A stretch of DNA of 36,379 nt, taken from positions 42,783 through 79,161 of the forward strand of contig NZAC01000020.1 of the NCBI GenBank assembly GCA_002686085.1. Reading direction: 5' to 3'. Source of the DNA: Roseibacillus sp. (lineage in GTDB: Bacteria; Verrucomicrobiota; Verrucomicrobiia; Verrucomicrobiales; Akkermansiaceae). Both the position numbers and the translations under genes were made by a program. Positions 1-29,318 of the stretch are shown one piece after another (position 1 is the stretch's first letter; each line of letters opens with the position of its first letter). The notes below the pieces were generated by a model. The model did no database searches and was not told the origin of the DNA. It saw only the letters and a program-made list of their open reading frames with translations.

Positions 1-209
1 GAAAAGAAGCGGGCCGGGACGACCCGGGTGTCGTTGAAGACGAAGAGATCATTCTCCCGGACGAAGGTCGGAAGGTCGCAAAACCGGTGATGCGTGATAG
101 TGCCCTCTTCCCGGTTGATCACCATCATCCGGGAGGCAGATCTTTCCGCCAGAGGGTGAGAAGCGATAAGGTCCGGGGGGAGATCGTAATCAAAGTCTTC
201 GGTATGCAC
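1..209 (-). CDS. queA: S-adenosylmethionine:tRNA ribosyltransferase-isomerase, N-terminal part (cut by window edge)
   Basis: QueA transfers and isomerises the ribosyl group of S-adenosylmethionine onto 7-aminomethyl-7-deazaguanine in tRNA, giving epoxyqueuosine at the wobble position; it acts in the cytoplasm. The 69 visible residues carry the family's N-terminal signatures: DFDYDLPPDLIASHPL near residues 5-20, a short segment ending in ITHHRFCDLP, and FNDTRVVPARFF at the edge. The start is GTG at 207-209, because an in-frame TAA lies five codons upstream and homologues begin just before this DFDYDLP block. No Shine-Dalgarno sequence is visible. It lies 81 bases downstream of the glycosidase-glycosyltransferase gene on the same strand. 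The rest of the gene lies outside the window. Family recognition is secure; activity is inferred. Confidence 0.93.
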   Translation of the reverse strand, partial: MHTEDFDYDLPPDLIASHPLAERSASRMMVINREEGTITHHRFCDLPTFVRENDLFVFNDTRVVPARFF

Positions 210-290
210 GGGAAGTGGTCTTTAGAAGACTCTTTGCCAGTTCGGCCGCCTGCTACAGTCAAAATCACCCTGGGGGCCCGCAAAGTCCTC

Positions 291-2447
291 TTAGTGCCTC
301 TTCAGGCCGACCTGTAGGGCGGCGTCCTCAAGCAGGGTGATTGCCTTCCTCCGCTGGTCGGGGGGGTGCTGAAGCCTTGCTCTTACGAGGGTGTGCTCTC
401 GGCCGTGCTGCTCATCGGCGGTCAGGAGGAGAAACGGTGAAGCCCTCAGATCCCATGTCTCGGTATCTCCACAGGGAGCCCATCCGTTCAGCCGAAGCGC
501 TTGAAGCAATTGCTGGCGCCCGGTTTCTGAGGACCCGAGGAAAGCAATTTCTGAGGTGCTGGTGGCGTTTCCGCCTTGCAGCGGGTGTGGGGCGGGAGAC
601 CTGTAGAAGCTCGGAGCAGGGCCTCCATGACGCCAACGCGAAAAGGCCCGGACAATTGGTTGGAGCAGATCACAGAGCCTGAGCAGGCCGCGGGAGGTAG
701 GCGAATTAAAACGACGGTGGAGCGGGCGGCGGGGCACTGCGTGATGGGCCAGTCCCTGATAACCCGCCTGCCCCATGGATCCGAAATAAATGACGGAGCG
801 GGTGTCTGCGCTGACGGGGCCGCCGCTGTAGACGCTGCCTTTCCAATGAATGCCCCCGTCACGAAATCTCCCGGGGTGGGCTTCGAAAAGTAAAGCTTCT
901 GCCCGGCCGTATCCCCCTTGTTGTCTAAGGTAGCGAGCAATGGAAGTGCGCCTGCGATGCCAGACGAATGCGGCAGGAGCGAACGCCAACTCCCATCCCT
1001 GATCGAGGAGGCGCCAGCAGAGGTCAACATCGTCTCCGGCTGTGACGAACTGGGGTTGAAACCCTCCAATCGAGTCCAAGGCTTCCCGGCGTACTACGAG
1101 ATTGCAGCCGGGAAGGTGCTCCGCGCAGAGGTCCCCGGAGAGGACGTGCGAAGGGGCTCCGGTAGCAGAGGCCACAATGGCTTCCTGTAAGCCCTCTGGG
1201 GAGGGAGGAAGATTAGGGCCCCCGGCGGCTCCGATGCGAGGGTGGTCAAAGCTCCGGGCGATCCAGAATAGCCAGTCGACGTCAGGCTGGCAGTCATCAT
1301 CCGTGTAGGCGATGAGGTCTCCTGAAGCCTGCGCCGCGCCAAAATTGCGGGCGTTGGAAAGACCTCCGTGTTGCTGTTTGAGGTAGCGTACTTCTGGGAA
1401 ACGGGTGGCAATCTCGGGAGTCTCGTCAGTGGATCCGTCGTCGACGACGAGAACCTCGAAATCTGGATATTCCAGCGAGGAACAGGCGTTGAGGCAGGCC
1501 TCGAGATTGGCTGCACCATTGTGGGTGCAGATCACCACTGATATCCGGGGAACAGTATTGAGAAGAAGGGAAGCGTGAGCGGTAGAGATCGTGGGGAGGC
1601 ATTCGCGAAGCGCTTCTATAACCGGTTTCTCGCTTCGGTCGTATCGGGTCAGGCCAAAGGCCCATTCCGCCATCTGAATTCCGCGGCTCGCCCAGCGGTC
1701 GGACCACGCAAAGAAGGTAGTGCCGGCCAGCCCCGCCGCCAGGCTCTCCTCGAGGTGGCCCTTCAGAAGGGCGGCCTGAGCGTCTTCGTGATTCCTGATG
1801 GTATCGAGCCCGAACTCGGTAATAAGGATTGGACGGTCTCCCGCGATATTCTGGAGGCGGGGGAGGTAGCGCGCTTGGGACTCGCGATCCTCAAGGTAGA
1901 CATTGAATGCGCTGAAGTCCGCATTCCTGGGTTCCAAGTATTCGGTGCTGGGGTAGTTGGCGTAACAGATGGGCAGGTCCGCAGTCTCTTCCCGGCAGAG
2001 TTCAATGATCTCCTCCAAGGCGCTTCTGACCTGTGACGGCCCCATCCAACGGACAAGGCTCGAAGGAATCTCGTTGGCAACAATCAGGGCGCCAAGAGCG
2101 GGATGAAGGCCATGCTCTCTCAAAAAATTAAGCAACCGTAATTCACCTTCGGCCCGGAGCCGGGGCTCGGCTAGAAAGTCCCGGCCCCATTCCCAGGGGA
2201 TTCCCACGAGGACTACGAGCCCATTCTCCTGCGCACAGTCAAGGAGGGCCTGAGTTGCACCCGTATAGACCCGGATTGCATTGAAACCACATGCGGCGAT
2301 CCGGGGGAATTCGATGGCGGGATCGAGTTCTGCATCGGAAGGAAACGGACCGAAGGTAACGCATTTCAGGAACAAGCGTTTGTCCCCGAGGGCTAGGAAC
2401 CTGCCATCGACCCGTAAACGCGCTGGTCCGGAGAAGGACACGCTCAA
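291..2447 (-). CDS. Fusion protein: clan GH-A glycoside hydrolase-like barrel plus family 2 glycosyltransferase
   Basis: Residues 10-290 read as a (beta/alpha)8 barrel like GH2/GH5 enzymes: LIVANEIP holds a candidate acid/base Glu126 after Asn, and ILITEFG holds a candidate nucleophile Glu211. Residues 300-520 are a GT-A, family 2 glycosyltransferase: RISVVICTHNG, VVDDGS (Asp336-337), YTDDD (the DxD-type metal site, 383-385) and GDDVDLCWR near 470. The last 150 residues are not recognised. There is no signal peptide or clear membrane segment, so a cytoplasmic or peripheral membrane site is likely. The start is TTG at 2445-2447, or GTG two codons later; the only in-frame stop upstream is the selD stop codon, 48 bases away, so the two genes share a reading frame and probably a transcript. 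Both active sites look intact. The substrate is unknown. Confidence 0.85.
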   Translation of the reverse strand: MSVSFSGPARLRVDGRFLALGDKRLFLKCVTFGPFPSDAELDPAIEFPRIAACGFNAIRVYTGATQALLDCAQENGLVVLVGIPWEWGRDFLAEPRLRAEGELRLLNFLREHGLHPALGALIVANEIPSSLVRWMGPSQVRSALEEIIELCREETADLPICYANYPSTEYLEPRNADFSAFNVYLEDRESQARYLPRLQNIAGDRPILITEFGLDTIRNHEDAQAALLKGHLEESLAAGLAGTTFFAWSDRWASRGIQMAEWAFGLTRYDRSEKPVIEALRECLPTISTAHASLLLNTVPRISVVICTHNGAANLEACLNACSSLEYPDFEVLVVDDGSTDETPEIATRFPEVRYLKQQHGGLSNARNFGAAQASGDLIAYTDDDCQPDVDWLFWIARSFDHPRIGAAGGPNLPPSPEGLQEAIVASATGAPSHVLSGDLCAEHLPGCNLVVRREALDSIGGFQPQFVTAGDDVDLCWRLLDQGWELAFAPAAFVWHRRRTSIARYLRQQGGYGRAEALLFEAHPGRFRDGGIHWKGSVYSGGPVSADTRSVIYFGSMGQAGYQGLAHHAVPRRPLHRRFNSPTSRGLLRLCDLLQPIVRAFSRWRHGGPAPSFYRSPAPHPLQGGNATSTSEIAFLGSSETGRQQLLQALRLNGWAPCGDTETWDLRASPFLLLTADEQHGREHTLVRARLQHPPDQRRKAITLLEDAALQVGLKRH

Positions 2448-2495: not shown

Positions 2496-3545
2496 CTAGA
2501 GAACCTCGATGTCGTGGTCATTACGGGGTTTCATTTCTCCAATTACTTCTGCGCATGGTGCTCCTTTTTCCTTAAGGAGGGAGAGGGCTTGGTCCAAGCT
2601 TTCCGGAGGCACGGAAAGGAGAAGCCCTCCACTGGTCTGGGCGTCAGCGAGAAGCAACTTCAGGGAATCTGGGATGCCAGCTGCGAACGAGGTGTTGGAT
2701 GCGGCTTCGAGATTAGATTTGGTTCCGCCCGGCACGCAACCTTCATCGATCAGGGAAAGAACCTTGTCGTCGATTGAGGGGACCTGCTTGCTACGAACTA
2801 CAGCAGTCAATCCACTTTCTCGCGCCACCGCTCCAAGGTGCCCAAGGAGGCCAAACCCGGTGACATCGGTTCCGCCCCGGACCAGTCCGGCCTTTGCGAG
2901 ATCCGCGCCCGGGGCATTGAGTGTGGTCATCAGGGCAATGGACCGGTCGGAAAGGGACCCGATATCCATGCCTCTTTTCGTCGCGGTGGAAAGAATTCCC
3001 GTTCCCAGAGGCTTGGTAAGAATAAGCAGGTCTCCTGCAGCCGCGCCCGCATTGGTAATCAGCTGGTCCGGGTGAACGAGGCCAGTGACAGAGAGACCGT
3101 AGAGCGGCTCGGGGTTCTGAACGGTATGTCCGCCTGCCAGGACGCATCCAGCTTCGGCCACCTTATCCGCGCCACCCTTGAGGATCTGGTTGACGTCCTC
3201 GAGAGAAAGATGCTCCAAGGGAACGCCAACCACGTTCATCGCGGTGACTGGAAGTCCCCCCATTGCGTAGACATCCGAGAGCGAGTTTGCGGCTGCGATT
3301 TGCCCGTAGGTATAGGGGTCGTCAACAATAGGGGTGAAGAAATCCAAGGTCTGCACCATGGCGAGCTCTTCGCTAAGCCGGTAGACAGCGGCATCGTCAG
3401 AGGACGCAGCTCCTACCAGGAGATCCTCATTCTCGATCTGGGTCAGCCCGCGCAGAACCTGCGCAAGGTCGGCTTGGCCGAGCTTGGAGGCTCAGCCCGC
3501 ACAGGACGACAGTTCTGTCAGGCGCTTGATGTCTTCGCGGGACAT
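2496..3545 (-). CDS. selD: Selenide, water dikinase (selenophosphate synthetase), itself a selenocysteine protein
   Basis: SelD makes selenophosphate from selenide and ATP; this is the selenium donor for selenocysteine and for 2-selenouridine in tRNA. Conventional reading starts at 3359 and lacks the active-site arm. Reading from ATG 3543-3545 gives 349 residues, the normal length, if the in-frame UGA at 3492-3494 is decoded as selenocysteine: SSCAG-U-ASKLGQ. U18 aligns with catalytic Cys17 and Lys21 with Lys20 of the E. coli enzyme. SSDDAAVYRL (Asp50-51) and DFFTPIVDDPYTYG are the ATP/Mg sites, and the later glycine-rich segments are intact. AGGA seven bases before the ATG is a rare good Shine-Dalgarno for this window. 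A hairpin after the UGA fits a bacterial SECIS. The gene probably heads an operon with the fusion gene. The start and the UGA reading are supported by homology on both sides of the stop. Confidence 0.94.
3450..3464 (-). promoter_or_regulatory. Candidate bacterial SECIS hairpin in selD
   Basis: In the selD message, 27 bases after the UGA, GCGCAG pairs perfectly with CTGCGC across a three-base GTT loop. Bacterial SECIS elements are small hairpins inside the coding region, shortly downstream of the UGA, with a G and U in or near the apical loop that SelB recognises. Stem, loop content and distance fit that pattern. A second possible stem, TCGGC/GCCGA around CAA, lies closer to the UGA and would be the rival structure. 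Not tested by folding. Confidence 0.6.
3492..3494 (-). other. In-frame UGA, probable selenocysteine codon of selD
   Basis: The codon read on the minus strand is TGA at position 18 of selD. Coding potential and family homology continue unbroken on both sides, and the residue it replaces is the catalytic Cys/Sec of SelD proteins. Selenocysteine at this site is known in other bacteria, for example Haemophilus influenzae SelD. A plain nonsense mutation is the alternative. Confidence 0.9.
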
Positions 3546-5507: not shown

Positions 5508-8225
5508 ATGGCCGTGAACTTATCCCTCCGCGAGTTTCTCGTTAGTGGCGCGTGGAAGGAGCGATTTGACGGATTCGTACTAGAGGACGGGAGCAAGCTG
5601 GCCCGGAAACGCCGGGTCTCGGAAATGTCGTGGGAATCCCTTGAGGACGGCGGCGGAGTGCTTGCCGCACGAGTGCAGGATTTGGAGGGCGAGTATTACG
5701 AGGTAGAGATTTCCATCTGGGAGGAGGGTGAGGGCCTCTGGGAAATAGATACCTCCTGCAGTTGTCCCTATGCTTACTACTGCCAACATGCGGCGGCCGC
5801 TCTCTTGGGAGCGGGCAAAAAAACCATGGTGGATCGCCTTTTGGAGGGAGGCAGTGCGTATGTTCGGGTCCCCGTTGCGGGATCGGTGAAGGAGAGGCCT
5901 CCTCGCGAGACGATGCCCCGGCAGACTCTGGATGTTTCTCCAACGTTCCGCATGGAAGTATTGGTGGAGCCCGCCCATAGCCGCTCCGTTCAGATGCTGT
6001 TGCAATCTTTGAGAGCGGCGAACCGGGATGAATGGTTAGTGGCCAGGCCGACGGCGAGCTATGAGGGGCACGACCTTCCGCTTCATACGGGTGGCGATAG
6101 CGCCGTCCTGATTGAAACAGGAGATGGCATGCTCGAAATTGTGCGGGACTTGAAGGCGGAGGGGGCTGCCGTACGAGACCTGGCTCAGCTTGGCCTGACT
6201 CACTTGGGAGCCCAGCCGAGTTATCGATTCCTGCTAGGATTGGAGCGAGAGAGAGACGCGGAGCCCCCCGCCGAGTCTGCATGGTTTCCCGAGCCCAGCT
6301 TGAATACACCGGATCTCTTCTGGCCTTGGTTTCGGGCTGAAGCTATTCCCAAGCTTGAGAGCCGCGGCTGGGAAGTCTTGGTGGATAAGGAGGTTGGCTT
6401 TCCTGTCTACGTCACAGAGCCGGGCGACTGGGAAGGGGCCCTTTCTGAGCAGACAGGCGGATGGTTCTCCTTGTCGGTAGGGTTCGATCTGGATGGAGAG
6501 CGGTTGGACCTTCTCCCGATCCTCGCAAAGCTGTTGGAAGACGGGACGCTCGATATGCTGGATGAACTCTCGGACCGGTCCCATCACCTGGTCTACTTAC
6601 CCGAGGGCGGAGCGCTCAAGATCCCGGTAGAGCGGCTCAAGCGGATCCTGCGGCAGCTTGCCTCTCTGGTGGACCCCAATCGACCCTTTCTCCACCCGGT
6701 GGACGCGGCCCATCTGGCTTCAAGCTCTGAGCTCTCCCTCGACCCTGGCAAGGGGTTGGACCAGCTGGTAAAGCAGATTGAGAAGCTCAGACAACCTGCC
6801 ACAAAAGACCCCCCTGAGGGGGTCCAGGCGACGCTTCGAGGCTACCAGCTCGAAGGCTTCCAGTGGATGCAGGGCCTTGCCAAGTGTCAGTTGAATGGAA
6901 TCCTTGCGGATGACATGGGACTCGGTAAGACCTTGCAGACTCTTACGCATATCCTTGCCGAAAGAGTCTCGGGTAGAAGTGAAGGCCGGCCAACCTTGGT
7001 GGTAGCTCCGACCTCGGTAGTGCCAAACTGGAGGAAGGAGGCAGCTAAGTTTGTCCCCTCCTTGAGCGTTTTGGTTCTGCAGGGTCCGGGGAGAAAGAAA
7101 GACTTCAGGAACGTGCCTCATGCGGATGTGGTGCTCACTTCCTACGCGTTGCTCCAGCGCGATGTGGAAACGCTGGGAAGCATGGATTTTCATCTGGTCG
7201 TTCTGGACGAGGCTCAGAATATTAAGAATCCGGCGGCAAAAGTGAGCAAGGCCGCCTGCAAGTTGCAAGCGGCCCAGCGGCTCTGTCTATCGGGCACACC
7301 CATTGAGAATAATCTGGGCGAGCTCTGGTCGTTGATGCACTTCCTCCTGCCCGGCTTTCTCGGAAGCGAGGAGGTATTCAGGACCCGCTACCAAAATCCG
7401 ATTGAGAAAGAAGGCAACGAGGACCGGAAGGAAGATCTCAGGACGCGGATTGTGCCCCTCATCCTCCGCCGGACGAAAGATGAGGTGGCATCGGAACTTC
7501 CTCCGAAGACCACTCTGATCCACCCAATTGAATTGAACACCGGGCAAAAGGATCTCTACGAGACGGTACGTGCGACGATGGATCGGAGGGTTCGACAGGC
7601 AATTGCCGCGCAGGGCATCGAGCAGAGCCGCATTGTCTTTCTGGATGCTCTGCTGAAGTTGCGTCAAATCTGCTGCGATCCCCGGTTATTAGGCATGAGA
7701 GAGGCCAATGAACTGGCCTCCGCTAAACTAGATTATCTCATCGAACTCTTGGATATGCTTGTCAAAGAGGGCCGTCGGATTTTGCTTTTCTCGCAGTTCA
7801 CCACGATGCTGGGCCTCATTCGGGAGAGGCTGCAGGCACAGGGAATTTCCTATCTTGAGCTCACGGGCTCATCGCGCAATCGAGGTGAGCTTGTGGAGCA
7901 ATTCCAAGCGGGGGAGATGCCCCTTTTCCTGATTTCTCTGAAAGCCGGCGGCACAGGACTTAATCTGACCGCAGCGGATACTGTAGTTCATTACGATCCG
8001 TGGTGGAATCCAGCTGCAGAAGCTCAGGCGACAGATCGCGCCTACCGGATTGGCCAGACCAGGCCTGTTTTTGTTCACCGGCTGATCTGCACGGGAACAG
8101 TAGAGGAGCGGATTCAGAAGCTACAGGTTGATAAGGCCAAGCTGGCGGATGACCTTCTGGCAGGCGCAAACAAAGTTATTGCCCCTGATGAGGACACCTT
8201 GAAGCAGCTTCTAGCGCCCTTATAG
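5508..8225 (+). CDS. SWI2/SNF2-family ATPase with N-terminal SWIM zinc finger
   Basis: This is a 905-residue DNA-dependent ATPase of the bacterial SNF2 (HepA/RapA-like) group. A SWIM zinc finger, CxCx5CxH, is at Cys84, Cys86, Cys92 and His94 (CSCPYAYYCQH). A long middle region resembles the bacterial SNF2-associated domain. The helicase core begins near residue 440: ADDMGLGKT (motif I, about 466-474), LDEAQ (motif II, about 566-570), LSGTPIENN (motif III), LLFSQFTTM (motif IV), LKAGGTGLNL (motif V) and DRAYRIGQ (motif VI, about 842-849). All ATPase motifs are intact. It probably remodels protein-DNA or RNA polymerase-DNA complexes; the exact task cannot be told from sequence. Start ATG 5508 gives MAVNLSLREF; no Shine-Dalgarno is visible. 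It ends 17 bases from the convergent AlgJ-like gene. Confidence 0.93.
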   Translation: MAVNLSLREFLVSGAWKERFDGFVLEDGSKLARKRRVSEMSWESLEDGGGVLAARVQDLEGEYYEVEISIWEEGEGLWEIDTSCSCPYAYYCQHAAAALLGAGKKTMVDRLLEGGSAYVRVPVAGSVKERPPRETMPRQTLDVSPTFRMEVLVEPAHSRSVQMLLQSLRAANRDEWLVARPTASYEGHDLPLHTGGDSAVLIETGDGMLEIVRDLKAEGAAVRDLAQLGLTHLGAQPSYRFLLGLERERDAEPPAESAWFPEPSLNTPDLFWPWFRAEAIPKLESRGWEVLVDKEVGFPVYVTEPGDWEGALSEQTGGWFSLSVGFDLDGERLDLLPILAKLLEDGTLDMLDELSDRSHHLVYLPEGGALKIPVERLKRILRQLASLVDPNRPFLHPVDAAHLASSSELSLDPGKGLDQLVKQIEKLRQPATKDPPEGVQATLRGYQLEGFQWMQGLAKCQLNGILADDMGLGKTLQTLTHILAERVSGRSEGRPTLVVAPTSVVPNWRKEAAKFVPSLSVLVLQGPGRKKDFRNVPHADVVLTSYALLQRDVETLGSMDFHLVVLDEAQNIKNPAAKVSKAACKLQAAQRLCLSGTPIENNLGELWSLMHFLLPGFLGSEEVFRTRYQNPIEKEGNEDRKEDLRTRIVPLILRRTKDEVASELPPKTTLIHPIELNTGQKDLYETVRATMDRRVRQAIAAQGIEQSRIVFLDALLKLRQICCDPRLLGMREANELASAKLDYLIELLDMLVKEGRRILLFSQFTTMLGLIRERLQAQGISYLELTGSSRNRGELVEQFQAGEMPLFLISLKAGGTGLNLTAADTVVHYDPWWNPAAEAQATDRAYRIGQTRPVFVHRLICTGTVEERIQKLQVDKAKLADDLLAGANKVIAPDEDTLKQLLAPL

Positions 8226-8242
8226 GGCTTGGTCGCGTAGTG

Positions 8243-9613
8243 TTATTTGATCCAGAAGCGGGGGAGCTTCTGGTCGGAGAGAGGAAGGCTGAACCGTTGC
8301 AGGCGGTCTTGGGCAGACTCGACAGAGGACCATGGAACCACCTCTATGGCGACTTGGTCGCCGTTCTCCCACTGCGCCATTCCGGTAGGAAGATGGTCCC
8401 GTACGGCAAGACCCATGAGGATGACTGGCCCCATTACCAAGCCGGAACCACTCCGAATATCCGTGATGATGACTTCTCGGACCGCCTCCCGGTATGGGGT
8501 GCGAGTTAAAGCAGGCATAGGGGCGGTTTTCAGCACTGTGCCCTGCAAAGGCTGTGGAGAGGCTGAGCCCTCGGGAGGGAGCTGTCCCTTGACCTGGGGA
8601 ATTTCAATTAGCCTCCAATCGCCAAAAGAAAGCTCTCGCATGGCGAACTGCCAAACAACCACCGACTTGTTGGCAAGCCTTTCCGGATGTTTCATTAAGG
8701 CCTCTCTGGTCTTAAACGCTCCATCGTGAGCTGTGCTAAGGCGGTCTATCGGGGCGCCCATCTCGAGGCTCAGGGTCTCCGCGAATCCGGCTCCTTTACC
8801 CCACCCGTTGTCGGGCTTCGAGTAAATCTCGGTAAAGCTGTCCCCCAAGAGGAGATAAGGGGAATAGGGGCGAGGTTTCCAGAGCTGCCCATTGGACTCG
8901 AGGACCATTCTTGTTGTGATAGTCTCCTCATATTCAGGGCCACGAAACCGGGCAAGATCTCCAGTGAGCGCCAGCTTTCGGTCGACGGTCTCGTAAGAAG
9001 TGGTAGGAAGCTGCACCGAAGTCCGTTCTGCTACGAGATGAGCAATTCTCGCCATCCCTTCCGGGGACCAGTGGCTATCTCCCCGGAGAAATGGAGAGTC
9101 TCCATCAGCAGACATTTTTACCAAAAGCGGGGCAACATCTAGAACGTCGATCTGATGCTCCGATTCCAGAAGGTGAAGAAATTCATCGTAGCCCTCGTTG
9201 ACGACCGGCTCTCCAGCGTGATTCGGAACAGTTGCTTTCGAGGGCAGCGGCAGGAGGACCAGCCGGATCCCCATGCCTTGCAGCTGGCGGTGAAAGTCGA
9301 CGATAGCGGGGAGAGGATCCCAGTTGCGGCCGGCCGCCGCTGCACCTCGGGGGCTCTTCAGAAAACTCCGAAGTTCCACGTGCTGGACATCCTGCCGGAG
9401 ATAAAGTTGGCCATCCCGGGTTACGACTCCTCCGAAGTTGAGGCCCAATGACGCTGACAACTTATGAGCTAGTCTCCCGAAGGGTCCTCGCTCAGCATCA
9501 AGTCGATTTCCTGGGTCGTCTGAGGAAGAGCTGAGGTAAGCAATAGCACTCAGTCCGAGCAAGAGCAGGAGCAGACTCGCGAGGACCAGCCGGCGACATC
9601 TCCCCCGAGCCAT
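8243..9613 (-). CDS. AlgJ/AlgX-like SGNH hydrolase (polysaccharide O-acetylation or deacetylation family)
   Basis: 456 residues. An N-terminal hydrophobic anchor (LVLASLLLLLLGLSAIA, about residues 9-25) places the rest in the periplasm. The SGNH catalytic residues are visible in the circularly permuted order of AlgX/AlgJ: RGDSHWSPEGM gives Asp179 and His181, and LLLGDSF gives the nucleophile Ser259; VVWQFAMREL is also typical. Family members transfer or remove acetyl groups on exported polysaccharides such as alginate, usually beside an MBOAT acyltransferase (AlgI). No MBOAT gene is in the window. Here the gene ends an operon-like run of sulfatases, which suggests action on the same glycan. 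ATG 9613 is preferred to GTG 9637 because it directly precedes the anchor. Confidence 0.82.
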   Translation of the reverse strand: MARGRCRRLVLASLLLLLLGLSAIAYLSSSSDDPGNRLDAERGPFGRLAHKLSASLGLNFGGVVTRDGQLYLRQDVQHVELRSFLKSPRGAAAAGRNWDPLPAIVDFHRQLQGMGIRLVLLPLPSKATVPNHAGEPVVNEGYDEFLHLLESEHQIDVLDVAPLLVKMSADGDSPFLRGDSHWSPEGMARIAHLVAERTSVQLPTTSYETVDRKLALTGDLARFRGPEYEETITTRMVLESNGQLWKPRPYSPYLLLGDSFTEIYSKPDNGWGKGAGFAETLSLEMGAPIDRLSTAHDGAFKTREALMKHPERLANKSVVVWQFAMRELSFGDWRLIEIPQVKGQLPPEGSASPQPLQGTVLKTAPMPALTRTPYREAVREVIITDIRSGSGLVMGPVILMGLAVRDHLPTGMAQWENGDQVAIEVVPWSSVESAQDRLQRFSLPLSDQKLPRFWIK

Positions 9614-25260: not shown

Positions 25261-26121
25261 GTGATCCCGAGAAAAGCTGTTGTTACTGCGGCCAGTCCCA
25301 CGGAATACCATTTGCCCCTCCAGACGCTGGTGGATTCCGAGGGAGTAGCCAAGACCGCTTTGGCAATCATCCTTGATGATCTTTTCGCCTCCGGAATCGA
25401 TTCCGCGGCAGTGGTGATATATCCGGGAACTCGTGACATCTTCCTGCGTGCTGCAGGAGAGCATGCGGATCGGCTTACTCTGATAGAGCAGGAGGCTCCT
25501 CGGGGATACGGCCACGCGGTATGGAGTGCGCATGAATTCACGGGAGATGATCCCTTTGTCCTGCTGGTAGGGGATCACCTCTACCTCAGTAATGATGGGC
25601 CATCCTGCGTAAGCCAGATGCTGAAAGTGGCGTCAGATCATGAAGGCTGTATTTCGGCAGTCAACCCGACTCACGAGAGTCAACTGCGCTATTATGGAGC
25701 TGTGGCGGCTAGCCGGGTGCCGGTATCGCCATCCCTGTTTGAGGTTCACGATGTGATCGAGAAGCCGACTCCGACGCTCGCTGAGCAGGAATTGATCGTG
25801 CCCGGATTAAGGGCCGGGAATTATCTGTGCTTCTTCGGGATGCATCTTCTCACCTCCAGGGTCATGGAGCATCTCGGCCGGGAAGTAACCCGGATTGAAG
25901 AGGGACAAAAGCTCGGGCTCTCTTCTACCCTGGCGGTTATCGCTGCGGAGAAAAAATACCTCGCTGTAGAGCTCGCGGGCCAGCGCTTCAATATCGGGGA
26001 GCGCTATGGGCTCCTAAGGGCTCAGCTTTCTCTCGCGCTGGCGGGCCCTCACCGTGATGAAGTGCTCACCGATATAATTGAGATTACGGCTCACTCTCGC
26101 CCCGCATGTCCAAGCTCCTGA
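25261..26121 (+). CDS. GalU-like nucleotidyltransferase with an altered nucleotide-binding loop
   Basis: 286 residues, the size of GalU/RfbA-type enzymes, which make NDP-sugars from a sugar-1-phosphate and NTP. EQEAPRGYGHAVWSA (76-90), LLVGDHLYL (101-109, Asp105 for metal) and VIEKPTP match GalU, and GNYLCFFGMHLL resembles the sugar-binding strand. However, the opening KAVVTAASPTEYHLP lacks the GxGTRxxP loop that binds the nucleotide in GalU, so the protein may be inactive, regulatory or specific for another substrate. Start GTG 25261; no ATG is available in frame. It overlaps the next gene by 16 bases, which indicates tight co-expression and a related job. Confidence 0.8.
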   Translation: MIPRKAVVTAASPTEYHLPLQTLVDSEGVAKTALAIILDDLFASGIDSAAVVIYPGTRDIFLRAAGEHADRLTLIEQEAPRGYGHAVWSAHEFTGDDPFVLLVGDHLYLSNDGPSCVSQMLKVASDHEGCISAVNPTHESQLRYYGAVAASRVPVSPSLFEVHDVIEKPTPTLAEQELIVPGLRAGNYLCFFGMHLLTSRVMEHLGREVTRIEEGQKLGLSSTLAVIAAEKKYLAVELAGQRFNIGERYGLLRAQLSLALAGPHRDEVLTDIIEITAHSRPACPSS

Positions 26122-29100
26122 CAATTATTTCAAGCGAGGAGCCCGAGGTTCGCAATACAGCACTGGCAGAGGTTTGCGTGAAGCTCACCGTGTCAGAGCT
26201 CATGGACGAGTGTGTCGCCCTCGACCGGTTCCGCAGAGAAAGTGAAAACCTTTACGAAAGAGTAAGGGCTCTCTGTTTTCTCTCTGCGATTCATCGCCAC
26301 CACCTTCCTCCGCTATTGCCGGCTGCAAAAACAGGCCGTATCCCGGCAGCGGGGACCGATCTTCTTCTGCAGCGGCGATTTGCCGAAGCCATCGATGTAT
26401 TTCACTTGGCGGTTGCGGAGCAAGGAGCCTGTGGGGCGCTGTCATCTGCCCTTGCCCACGGGTATCATGAACTGGCTTTTCATGCTCTGGGCGCTCAGGT
26501 GCGCAAGGCGGTCCAGGAAATCAAAGGCAACCAATGGATGTTTCGAATGGGTCATCCCGCGGATCATCCTCTGATCGTTTCGGAGGAGCTTTTGGAGAGA
26601 AAACCTGATGGCTCCCGGAAAATACTCTGCGAGCGAACTCCCGTCCGGATGGACCTGTCCCACTCGGGGTGGTCGGATATCTTTTTTCTGGGGATGGATT
26701 ATCCAGAGGGCGCACAGGTTCTCAATATCTCCGTAGACCTTGGGGTCCACGGCAGGGAGGATCAGCCGGCTCCACCGATCGAGGTGCAGGTGCGAGTCAT
26801 CGATGAGCCAGTGATCACTCTGAGGTCCATAGATCTTAGGGCGTCGGCCCGGGTCGAAAGTCTGGGGGAGGTTTTTGATTTCGCTAAAGACGAACTGGGC
26901 CTGCTCAAAGCGGCGGTTATTGCCTCCGGAGTTGTGCCGCCGGGAATCGAGGGTTCTGGACAAAGTTTGGAATCTCTCCTGGAGCGAATGGTCGGTCCCG
27001 GGCGGGGCATTGAGTTGGTTTCCAGCGTTCGCGGAATCTCGAAGGGGTCGAGGTTGGCGGTTTCCACCAACCTTCTGGCGGCCCTCATTGCCGTTCTGAT
27101 GAGGTCAACCGGCCAAACCAGATCCCTCAGCGGGACTCTCAGTGAAAGCGAGAAACGCCTTGTATTGGCGAGGGCGGTTCTGGGGGAGTGGCTTGGTGGA
27201 TCGGGCGGCGGTTGGCAGGACTGCGGAGGAGTCTGGCCTGGAATCAAATTGATCTCGGGAGTCCCCGCGAGCGCGATGGACCCGGAGTTTCATGTTTCGC
27301 GTGGACGCCTGTTGCCTACTCACCATGTCTTTGATGAGGACGAGATCCCAAGGTCCGCTAGGAAAGCGCTGCGGGATTCGATTGTCCTTGTTCATGGTGG
27401 AATGACTCAGAATGTGGGCCCCATGCTCGAAATGGTGACTGAGAGGTATCTACTCCGCTCGGGGAAGGAATGGGCAGCACGCCTTGAGGCCTTGAGACTC
27501 CTTGATGAGGTGGTCTCCTGCCTGAAGAGGGGAGACATGAGGGGCCTTGGCCGGGCCACCACGAGAAATTTCCGAGGACCGCTTCAGACCATTCTCCCCT
27601 GGGCTACGAATCTTTACACGGAAACCCTGATCGAGCGTGTTGAGGAAAAGTTCGGGGATGATTTCTGGGGGTTCTGTATGTTCGGGGGAATGTCGGGAGG
27701 CGGAATGGGCTTTATCTTTGACCCAGCTCGGAAATCCGAGGCGCAGGACGCGATGGGGTGGATCATGAAGGAGGCCAAGGACCATCTTCAGACGGCTCTG
27801 CCCTTTGCGATGGACCCGGTGGTGTATGATTTCCAGATTAATGATACAGGGACAAGTGCGAAGCTTCTTGAAAGCGATAGGTCGCTTTCCGGGGAGGAGG
27901 AGCGTGCTCCTGACCCTGCTGGCAAGGGCGCCGGTCAGGCGGTCAATCAGGGACAGGCAACCGACACCCTGAGGACGCTTCTGGAGGAGAACGGCTTTGA
28001 TCGGGCAGCCCATGGCAGGCTGCGAGAAGATGTCATTTCCGGACGCGTCAGCCTGCAAAGCAACAGGCTGCCATCTACGGCTCGAATCGATGACGTCATT
28101 TCCGGGGATGTCGTGGACTGCACGGCAGGGAGCGAAAACTTGTCGAGGGAGAGCTCCGAGGTTGGAGAGGCTGCCATTGCTGGAGGAGAGATTGCAGTAG
28201 TCACTCTCGCTGCGGGTGCAGCCTCGAGGTGGACCGGTGGCGCGGGAACCTGCAAGGCTCTTAATCCTTTTGCTTCGCTGGGTGGAAGGCACCGGACCTT
28301 CCTCGAGGTTCATCTTGCCAAGTCCCGAAAGACGGGATCGAACCTTGGGGTGGAAATCCCGCACGTATTTACTACCTCCTATCTCACCCATGGGCCCACC
28401 CGAAGATTTCTGGATGAGGTCTCCCGTTATAATTACGAAGGGCCCCTTTTCCTGTCTCCTGGCCGAACAGTAGGGCTGAGAATGATTCCCACGGTGCGGG
28501 ACTTGAAGTTCGCTTGGGAAGAGCTTCCCGAACAGCAGCTCGACCCTCAGCAGCAGAAGTTACGGGATTCCGTGCGCTCTGGCATGATTGATTGGGCGCG
28601 GGCGACGGGCGAGGCTCAGGATTATACGGACAACTTACCTGCCCAGTGCCTCCATCCCATGGGCCATTTCTATGAGGTTCCTAATCTTCTTCTTAATGGG
28701 ACCTTGCGGGCGCTTCTGCAGGAACGCCCACAGTTGAAGACCTTGCTTGTCCACAACGTGGATACTTTGGGAGCTTTTGTGGACCCTGCGATATTGGGCA
28801 CTCATCTCAAGAGCGGGCGGGGAATTACCCTTGAGGTCATAAGCCGGCAACTGGCTGACCGGGGTGGAGGGTTGGCCCGGGTGGATGGGAAGCTCCGGCT
28901 TGTAGAGGGTCTGGCAATGCCACAATCCTACTCTGAGTATGGGCTGTCCTATTTCAACTCCATGACGAGCTGGGTGGATCTTGATCAGTATTTGTCTCTC
29001 CTTGGACTCGATCGCGAGTCCGTTCTTGTCAACGACCGGGATCAGATGGGAGAAGCCATTCGGGCTCTTGTGGAGCGTATGCCGACCTATCTCACCCTCA

Positions 29101-29318
29101 AGGAGGTCAAGAGAGGATCGGGCAGTGGCCAACCGGGGGTGTTCCCTGTTGCCCAAGTGGAACATTTATGGGGTGACCTGACGACCTTGCCCGAGTCTAA
29201 CTGCGGGTATCTTCTGGTCGACAGGCAGCGTGGTCGACAACTCAAGAGCCCCGCTGAGTTGGATGAATGGGTTTCTCAGTCCGCAGCGCACCTTGAGGGT
29301 CTGTGCGCATGGAGTTGA
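26106..29318 (+). CDS. Bifunctional protein: fucokinase-type GHMP sugar kinase fused to UDPGP-type nucleotidyltransferase
   Basis: 1070 residues. Residues 1-140 are helical and unrecognised. Residues 175-580 match the fucokinase branch of GHMP kinases: RTPVRMDLSHSGWSDI (178-192), KGSRLAVSTN as the ATP loop (313-322), GGGWQDCGGVWPGIK (367-381) and MFGGMSGGGMGFIF (525-538). A linker of about 100 residues follows. Residues 695-1050 resemble the UDP-glucose/UDP-sugar pyrophosphorylase family (UDPGP): VVTLAAGAASRWTGGAGTCK (698-717) as the nucleotide loop and LLVHNVDTLGA (880-890) as the metal/nucleotide Asp site. The pairing predicts sugar to sugar-1-phosphate to NDP-sugar in one polypeptide, in the cytoplasm. 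Bacteroides-type Fkp has the reverse order. The sugar and nucleotide are not determined by sequence. ATG 26106 overlaps the upstream gene. Confidence 0.82.
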   Translation: MSKLLTIISSEEPEVRNTALAEVCVKLTVSELMDECVALDRFRRESENLYERVRALCFLSAIHRHHLPPLLPAAKTGRIPAAGTDLLLQRRFAEAIDVFHLAVAEQGACGALSSALAHGYHELAFHALGAQVRKAVQEIKGNQWMFRMGHPADHPLIVSEELLERKPDGSRKILCERTPVRMDLSHSGWSDIFFLGMDYPEGAQVLNISVDLGVHGREDQPAPPIEVQVRVIDEPVITLRSIDLRASARVESLGEVFDFAKDELGLLKAAVIASGVVPPGIEGSGQSLESLLERMVGPGRGIELVSSVRGISKGSRLAVSTNLLAALIAVLMRSTGQTRSLSGTLSESEKRLVLARAVLGEWLGGSGGGWQDCGGVWPGIKLISGVPASAMDPEFHVSRGRLLPTHHVFDEDEIPRSARKALRDSIVLVHGGMTQNVGPMLEMVTERYLLRSGKEWAARLEALRLLDEVVSCLKRGDMRGLGRATTRNFRGPLQTILPWATNLYTETLIERVEEKFGDDFWGFCMFGGMSGGGMGFIFDPARKSEAQDAMGWIMKEAKDHLQTALPFAMDPVVYDFQINDTGTSAKLLESDRSLSGEEERAPDPAGKGAGQAVNQGQATDTLRTLLEENGFDRAAHGRLREDVISGRVSLQSNRLPSTARIDDVISGDVVDCTAGSENLSRESSEVGEAAIAGGEIAVVTLAAGAASRWTGGAGTCKALNPFASLGGRHRTFLEVHLAKSRKTGSNLGVEIPHVFTTSYLTHGPTRRFLDEVSRYNYEGPLFLSPGRTVGLRMIPTVRDLKFAWEELPEQQLDPQQQKLRDSVRSGMIDWARATGEAQDYTDNLPAQCLHPMGHFYEVPNLLLNGTLRALLQERPQLKTLLVHNVDTLGAFVDPAILGTHLKSGRGITLEVISRQLADRGGGLARVDGKLRLVEGLAMPQSYSEYGLSYFNSMTSWVDLDQYLSLLGLDRESVLVNDRDQMGEAIRALVERMPTYLTLKEVKRGSGSGQPGVFPVAQVEHLWGDLTTLPESNCGYLLVDRQRGRQLKSPAELDEWVSQSAAHLEGLCAWS

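Follow-up and report, generated by a model that had tools for sequence, protein, structure and literature searches.

The window analysed here, a stretch of 36,379 nucleotides (nt) of Roseibacillus sp. (Verrucomicrobiota, Akkermansiaceae; assembly GCA_002686085.1, contig NZAC01000020.1, positions 42,783 to 79,161), carries two overlapping genes on its plus strand. One encodes a protein resembling the UDP-glucose pyrophosphorylase GalU, called the companion in the following, and the other a fusion of a fucokinase-like kinase with a nucleotidyltransferase of the UDPGP family. We consider it fairly probable that this gene pair works as a sugar-activation module, in which a bifunctional sugar-1-kinase/nucleoside diphosphate (NDP)-sugar pyrophosphorylase for a fucose-like sugar is joined by what is probably a regulatory pseudo-nucleotidyltransferase. 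The first half of the fusion would phosphorylate a free sugar, one that resembles L-fucose or D-arabinose at C3-C4, on its anomeric hydroxyl, and the second half, with its UDPGP fold, would then join the sugar-1-phosphate to a nucleoside triphosphate (NTP) to give the NDP-sugar. In the window's branch, which is one of two types and is named L type below, the companion lacks the loop lysine for NTP binding and activation; it is most likely a pseudoenzyme which binds sugar phosphate or nucleotide sugar, and would regulate or scaffold the fusion in the way that the non-catalytic GMPPA does for GMPPB. The architecture, the families of the domains, the conservation of residues, the pairing of the genes and the linked two-type pattern were all obtained by computation, and we infer both reactions, the regulatory role of the companion and the class of the sugar. 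The fusion is widespread in bacteria and apparently unstudied.

The fusion gene is a frame of 1070 amino acids (aa) without interruption, and open frames with both halves present were found in five phyla, thus it is not a product of chance. N-terminal helices and the fucokinase-like kinase of GHMP fold come first, and the UDPGP-fold nucleotidyltransferase comes last. The original prediction, made from the sequence, had described such a kinase-nucleotidyltransferase protein of 1070 residues, with a domain order opposite to that of the bifunctional fucokinase/GDP-fucose pyrophosphorylase (FKP), with a pyrophosphorylase of another family than that of FKP, and with an overlapping GalU-like gene. 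All of this is borne out by the open reading frame, the profile and fold matches, the presence of Pfam PF01704 and absence of PF07959, the overlap of 16 nt and the pairing across loci. Each domain is matched to its named family by profile or by fold, and in the homologues most of the catalytic residues do not vary. The wording "GHMP kinase" stood in part: the fold and the match to the FKP model agree with it, but Pfam GHMP_kinases_N has no match in the window's fusion or in any of the 17 members tested, and GHMP_kinases_C stays below its cut-off (18.1 vs 21). The structure model of the fusion was built from an alignment of 18 rows and has a mean pLDDT of 74; since some active-site stretches lie in its low-confidence parts (aa 132-154, 190-197, 705-715, 789-799 and 998-1019), the residue equivalences given for the fusion rest on sequence alignment.

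Regarding the kinase half, the best sequence match in the PDB for residues 170-489 is FKP. Residues 171-556 match positions 607-950 of the FKP model NF009948 (NCBIfam), which is its kinase part only, with an E-value of 3e-24 and a score of 84.7 bits, below the equivalog cut-off of 721. In structure comparison the kinase model (range 145..588) matches the FKP kinase 9iip with Z 33.1, a root-mean-square deviation (rmsd) of 2.8 and 355 aligned residues, against Z 31.9 for WcbL and 27.0 for galactokinase among other GHMP folds. Helices and kinase together, residues 3-588, align to FKP 490-949 (9iit_A: Z 29.5, rmsd 3.5, 447 aligned), therefore the first ~590 residues are the equivalent of the FKP linker plus kinase. 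The sugar-binding or catalytic residues reported for FKP are R592, W599, D601, E751, Q761 and D762 (PMC11982464), and in TxFKP R597 was confirmed as critical and D767 as less so (PMC12732313; this and the other cited papers were available in part, and what is taken from them holds for those parts). Their equivalents R181, W189, D191, E361, Q371 and D372 are identical in 53/53 distinct sequences and in 93/93 of a wider set, where S320 is invariant as well (93/93). Identical copies are left out of these residue counts and of those below, as are one locus broken over several frames (L023) and fragments that cover no more than 850 query residues (L020, L022, L024 and L025). The phosphate loop is constrained but not standard: KGSRLAVSTN is found in all 53 distinct sequences and exactly in 79 of the 93, the remainder being one residue off, in the place where canonical FKPs have GSGLGTSS, and two canonical FKPs of the window's phylum carry KGSGLGTSS. 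Two further kinase-like proteins were met in the survey. At positions 6898-8661 of locus L099 (genome G379) lies a protein distantly related to the kinase half (~32% identity), with the loop VPVGSGTGTSS. At 36-1175 of L130 (G402, Prolixibacteraceae), by sequence reading, a cytidylyltransferase-like N-terminus is joined to a fucokinase-like stretch (FRLDLAGGW).

In the C-terminal half, Pfam UDPGP PF01704 is matched with 47 bits (cut-off 22), and the window's own genome holds no other PF01704 match. The best PDB sequence matches for residues ~843-988 are eukaryotic UDP-glucose pyrophosphorylases, and residues ~613-1069 match the folds of UAP and UGP enzymes with Z of about 25-29. Profile comparison of the domain with ten proteins of UGP, UAP and USP type from the surveyed genomes, the type names being read from motifs, gave a match probability of 99.6%. 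In AtUGP, uridine is contacted by Gln162, Gly191 and Gly87, the beta-phosphate by His192 and Lys256, the alpha-phosphate by Lys99, and glucose by Asn220, Gly258, Glu271, Asn293 and Leu85 (PMC5832301); counterparts of Gly87, Met134, Gln162, Pro189 and Gly191 are found across UGP, USP and UAP (PMC5609113). The fusion keeps the uridine- and phosphate-site equivalents G704, K717, P851, G853 and H854 in 93/93 sequences, as it does R708, which aligns with an essential arginine of UAP (PMC3888555); E934 is kept in 91/93 (two gaps), N951 in 87/93 (three gaps, three Ser) and K1047 in 89/93 (four gaps). The position of Gln162 is residue 791, four before an invariant Pro and preceded by a 6-residue insertion in the profile alignment of the fusion. 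Gln is invariant here in the ten comparison proteins, and the fusions divide into those with Leu (60), Val (4) or Ile (2), which is the window's type with 66/93, and those with Gln (26) or His (1).

The structure model of the companion (pLDDT 91) matches GalU-type enzymes. Its match to the GalU model TIGR01099 has an E-value of 2e-21 and 74.8-76.8 bits, below the cut-off of 326.8, while a separate GalU in the same genome scores 345 bits, above it. GalU and RmlA carry a catalytic loop of the kind G-x-G-T-R ... K, in which both Arg and Lys are catalytic. In the companion this loop is short in the window and in 54 further rows (55/56), and the equivalents of GalU Q103, G108, D131, K193 and R254 are kept in 56/56. 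For the pyrophosphorylase of FKP, R80 is supported as a catalytic residue (PMC11982464, PMC12732313), and K89 makes a salt bridge to GTP (PMC11982464). Judged from its residues, the companion of the window's branch is probably an enzymatically dead pseudo-nucleotidyltransferase.

The states of the two proteins are linked. In the L type (Leu, Val or Ile at 791), 60/60 paired companions are without the loop lysine and have a loop 8 residues shorter, whereas in the Q type (Gln or His) the lysine is present in 24/24 readable companions, mostly in a loop like AAGRGxRLYPxADTVQKAMLP; the loop arginine is present in 21/24 Q-type vs 28/60 L-type companions. The Q-type companion of locus L202 was scored as short with its N-terminus beyond the contig end, and is not an exception. 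The Q type comprises Hydrogenedentota and some others; Planctomycetota, Bacteroidota and Acidobacteriota each contain members of the two types. In a FastTree tree, from which 8 near-copies were left out, the types lie on two sides of one branch with support 100; the branches to the canonical FKP outgroups are very long, and for this reason no direction of change is claimed. With loop lysine and uracil Gln both kept, the Q-type form probably uses UTP. The linked states suggest a functional coupling of fusion and partner, which falls short of proof. A bolder version, which we offer tentatively and would sooner doubt than believe, is that one historical split changed both proteins: the UDPGP domain may have lost canonical uracil recognition while the partner lost catalysis and turned into a subunit for allosteric control or base discrimination, so that the window's branch would yield a nucleotide sugar that none of the known kinase/pyrophosphorylase fusions produces, with an arginine-bearing kinase loop that is maybe non-standard in its dealing with ATP.

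The general unit across genomes is the GalU-like gene plus the fusion only. The survey used thresholds of 1e-20 for Verrucomicrobiota and 1e-50 for the other phyla. The fusion was found in 33 of 387 Verrucomicrobiota genomes (35 matched, G227 and G379 only via other FKP-type kinases), and matches came from 19/392 Planctomycetota, 8/395 Bacteroidota, 5/396 Acidobacteriota and 31/68 Hydrogenedentota genomes; among the matches listed, G1198 and G1206 have the kinase half only, and some further Hydrogenedentota genomes have the two halves on separate contigs. In the window's genus 12/15 genomes match, its own included. One locus with the halves on two frames (L153 in G600) was considered as a natural split and rejected, as there is a run of N in one frame. 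A scan of the genome contigs with the fusion gave 25 loci, and the companion lies directly upstream in 21/21 of those with upstream sequence, the four others starting at a contig end. The same holds for 31/31 wider loci of the window's phylum and for 29/29 loci of Hydrogenedentota, Bacteroidota and Acidobacteriota. For 12 loci of Planctomycetota, the companion is upstream in 6 and missing in 5, and one starts at a contig end. A protein search (E 1e-10) did not find it in 6/14 fusion-bearing genomes of this phylum, thus the fusion can probably occur on its own. Pairwise distances of kinase, UDPGP domain and companion correlate at 0.82-0.84 (48 rows). The coordinates of all features are collected in Table 1.

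Table 1. Features of the companion and fusion genes, in positions of the window
Feature	Residues	Position	Strand	Basis or remark
GalU-like companion, probably pseudo-nucleotidyltransferase	286 aa	25261..26121	+	GTG start; fold of GalU with a shortened loop at the catalytic site
Companion segment at the position of the GalU catalytic loop, KAVVTAASPTEYHLPLQTLVD; no loop lysine, shorter than Q type by 8 residues		25273..25335	+	55/56 rows short
Overlap of companion and fusion frames	16 nt	26106..26121	+	Open reading frame calls
Fusion protein	1070 aa	26106..29318	+	ATG start; open reading frame, profile searches, PDB searches, structure model
N-terminal helical region	aa 1-171	26106..26618	+	Forms, with the kinase, the part that aligns to FKP 490-949 (linker and kinase)
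Fucokinase-like GHMP-fold domain	aa 172-588	26619..27869	+	Profile, PDB sequence search, structure model
Non-canonical phosphate loop KGSRLAVSTN	aa 313-322	27042..27071	+	Alignment of 53 and 93 sequences
Kinase E361, Q371, D372 (FKP E751, Q761, D762)		27186..27221	+	Each 93/93
UDPGP-fold nucleotidyltransferase domain	aa 613-1069	27942..29312	+	Pfam, profile alignment, structure model
UDPGP nucleotide-binding signature with R708 and K717	aa 701-717	28206..28256	+	Alignment
SPGRTVGLRMIP, with L791 at the place of the uracil-binding Gln of UGP/UAP/USP	aa 784-795	28455..28490	+	Alignment
K1047, aligned with the C-terminal UGP lysine (PVK)		29244..29246	+	Profile alignment

In spite of this body of agreement, a number of points weigh against the sugar-activation module. 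GHMP kinases have a glycine-rich phosphate loop of the G-L-x-S-S kind, a pattern that the fusion fails to show: R316 and A318 stand in 93/93 sequences where FKP has Gly. Because the loop is non-canonical throughout, ATP is not assured as the phosphoryl donor. Moreover, FKP T602, which contacts the C3-OH of the sugar, is replaced by I192. In the UDPGP domain the equivalents of AtUGP K256 (beta-phosphate) and N220 (sugar) are changed to G920 and T887, and the uracil-binding Gln is lost in the L type; because of these changes, nucleotidyl transfer by this domain is something we infer and do not take as certain. As for the companion, the place of the loop arginine is still Arg in 32/56 rows, hence the case for its loss of catalysis is built mainly on the lysine and the shortening, and a regulatory role, though the most likely one, is drawn from analogy. 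The two-type pattern does not count as independent evidence of coupling because the tree has a single split, and the companions missing from some Planctomycetota may lie outside incomplete assemblies or be too divergent for the search threshold. Across the compared loci no other general neighbour of the pair was seen, and the literature searched gave no biochemistry for any member of the fusion family.

Among other explanations, the strongest is that the fusion is functionally an FKP which converts L-fucose to GDP-L-fucose, its UDPGP domain having switched to GTP and replaced the fucose pyrophosphorylase. We regard it as unlikely. In its favour, the fucose-holding kinase residues of FKP are invariant and the L-type loss of the uracil Gln would fit a nucleotide switch. 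However, the Q-type members retain that Gln, and the exchange of T602 for isoleucine speaks against this reading as well. In addition, genome G313 has a full canonical FKP (NF009948, 1029 bits) beside the fusion, and G088 has an FKP-type kinase, by sequence reading of a partly masked locus; with such enzymes at hand, the fusion of these two genomes is unlikely to be simply a GDP-fucose enzyme.

It is quite improbable that the GHMP domain is no longer an ATP kinase but a sensor of sugar or sugar phosphate, or a kinase with another phosphoryl donor. The departure of the phosphate loop from GSGLGTSS in 93/93 and the match of GHMP_kinases_N in 0/17 members would agree with this, but 93/93 sequences share R181, W189, D191, S320, E361, Q371 and D372, which is not what an active site in decay would show. 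We give as little credence to an exchange of roles, with the companion as the working nucleotidyltransferase and the UDPGP domain as a degenerate regulatory part. Such an exchange could draw on the loop lysine and arginine of Q-type companions, and on a UDPGP domain without the equivalents of K256 and N220 and, in the L type, without Gln; it does not sit well with L-type companions which all lack the lysine, with the six Planctomycetota genomes where the fusion was found and the companion was not detected, or with R708, K717 and H854, which are invariant in both types.

The surroundings of the pair bear on another proposal, that of a salvage enzyme for the breakdown of sulfated glycans, in which sulfatases free a sugar and the fusion re-activates it. 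Positions 9751-36379 of the window contain 12 Pfam-confirmed sulfatases (PF00884) in ~27 kb, and since eleven of them are on the minus strand, the sulfatases directly beside the two genes do not belong to one operon with them. In 11/11 loci of the Roseibacillus lineage the pair lies within a sulfatase cluster, vs 3/47 others with the cluster (L026, L065 and L073; 58 loci compared), and sulfatase-like genes, named from sequence, lie 5-7 kb from the pair in 4/29 further loci. The sulfatase setting is thus mainly local to the Roseibacillus lineage; many genomes have the pair among unrelated neighbours, and in the window both sulfatases next to the pair are encoded on the other strand, which leaves the salvage proposal with rather slim chances. 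The immediate downstream genes are mixed, with a sugar phosphotransferase in L155, PMT_2 transferases in L012, L199 and L202, and genes in L074 and L076 which we take to be RlmH-like. A GalE gene (TIGR01179, 432.6 bits) at 7464-8462 of L091 shares 4 nt with the 3' end of the fusion gene; this single case leans towards UDP-hexose or UDP-sugars. Because no downstream neighbour is general, no pathway is assigned. Some other genes near the pair were noted by the way: a gene with a CTP_transf_like domain just 3' of the fusion at 11323-12405 of L093, and, upstream on the same strand by sequence reading, genes like sucrose-phosphate synthase and sucrose phosphatase (L077, L086 and L088) and a fructokinase-like gene (L019, L086 and L088).

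Taken as a whole, the interpretation in the original prediction holds for the architecture and the pairing with the GalU-like gene. Its link to sulfated glycans, which does have the flanking sulfatases of the Roseibacillus lineage in its favour, is weak. It had also held UDP-sugar formation to be as plausible as GDP-fucose; for the window's branch UDP-sugars cannot be assumed, because the partner loop is shortened, the kinase loop is non-canonical and the uracil Gln is replaced. Elsewhere in the window, a SelD-like gene with AIRS domains on the minus strand (2496-3545) has a frame that extends upstream through an in-frame TGA (LSSCAGUASKLG, the codon being read as U); it is probably a selenoprotein SelD whose start was called too late by the open reading frame caller.

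In comparison with known systems, the favoured sugar-activation module is new in its architecture, its atypical kinase loop and its probable pseudoenzyme partner, and is of a known kind as a bifunctional sugar-1-kinase/pyrophosphorylase. Within the literature searched (titles and the beginnings of abstracts), no paper describing the kinase-UDPGP architecture was found, and the main text of a UniRef50-wide FKP phylogeny of 2025, as far as available, contains no "Verrucomicrob", "Planctomycet", "UTP" or "uridylyltransferase" (PMC12732313). FKP itself (FKP of Bacteroides fragilis and FKGP of Arabidopsis) has in common with the fusion the linker-plus-kinase module, the catalytic and sugar-contact residues and, presumably, two consecutive reactions in one chain. 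However, in FKP the pyrophosphorylase PF07959 comes first and the kinase last, while the fusion has the kinase first and a UDPGP-family domain last; the phosphate loops differ, and the fusion has a separate GalU-like partner. True FKPs (L097 and L098) match both NF009948 and PF07959. To the UDPGP family (UGP2, UAP1 and USP) the fusion is tied by fold, profile, the nucleotide-binding signature with Arg and Lys, the P-x-G-H motif and the C-terminal Lys; it is set apart by its bond to a kinase, the 6-residue insertion, the replacement, within the window's branch, of Gln by Leu, Val or Ile, and the changed equivalents of K256 and N220. The companion shares its fold and several conserved residues with the bacterial UDP-glucose pyrophosphorylases GalU and YngB, but scores far under the TIGR01099 cut-off, and its L-type loop is shortened and without the lysine.

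Two further systems come close. Zebrafish DrGKUP combines a GalU-like domain, with almost no measurable activity, and a GHMP kinase (PMC3938481); likened here by its description, it differs in being one chain with the GalU-like part N-terminal, in having glucuronic acid as substrate and in that no UDPGP domain is described in the available text. The gene order of GalU-like companion, then linker and kinase, mirrors both FKP (pyrophosphorylase, linker, kinase) and DrGKUP (GalU-like, kinase). In GMPPA-GMPPB, a catalytically dead partner of nucleotidyltransferase fold controls the active one (PMC9168903, PMC11228364), but GMPPA is a paralogue of its partner, whereas the companion and the active domain of the fusion belong to different families. 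The linked states of fusion and partner offer a natural experiment on a nucleotidyltransferase becoming a pseudoenzyme, and the fusion could be a new tool for nucleotide-sugar synthesis, where FKP is already in use. With FKP and the fish glucuronokinase as the known sugar-1-kinase/pyrophosphorylase fusions, the window's fusion is a further build, with a pyrophosphorylase domain from another family and the order reversed with respect to FKP.

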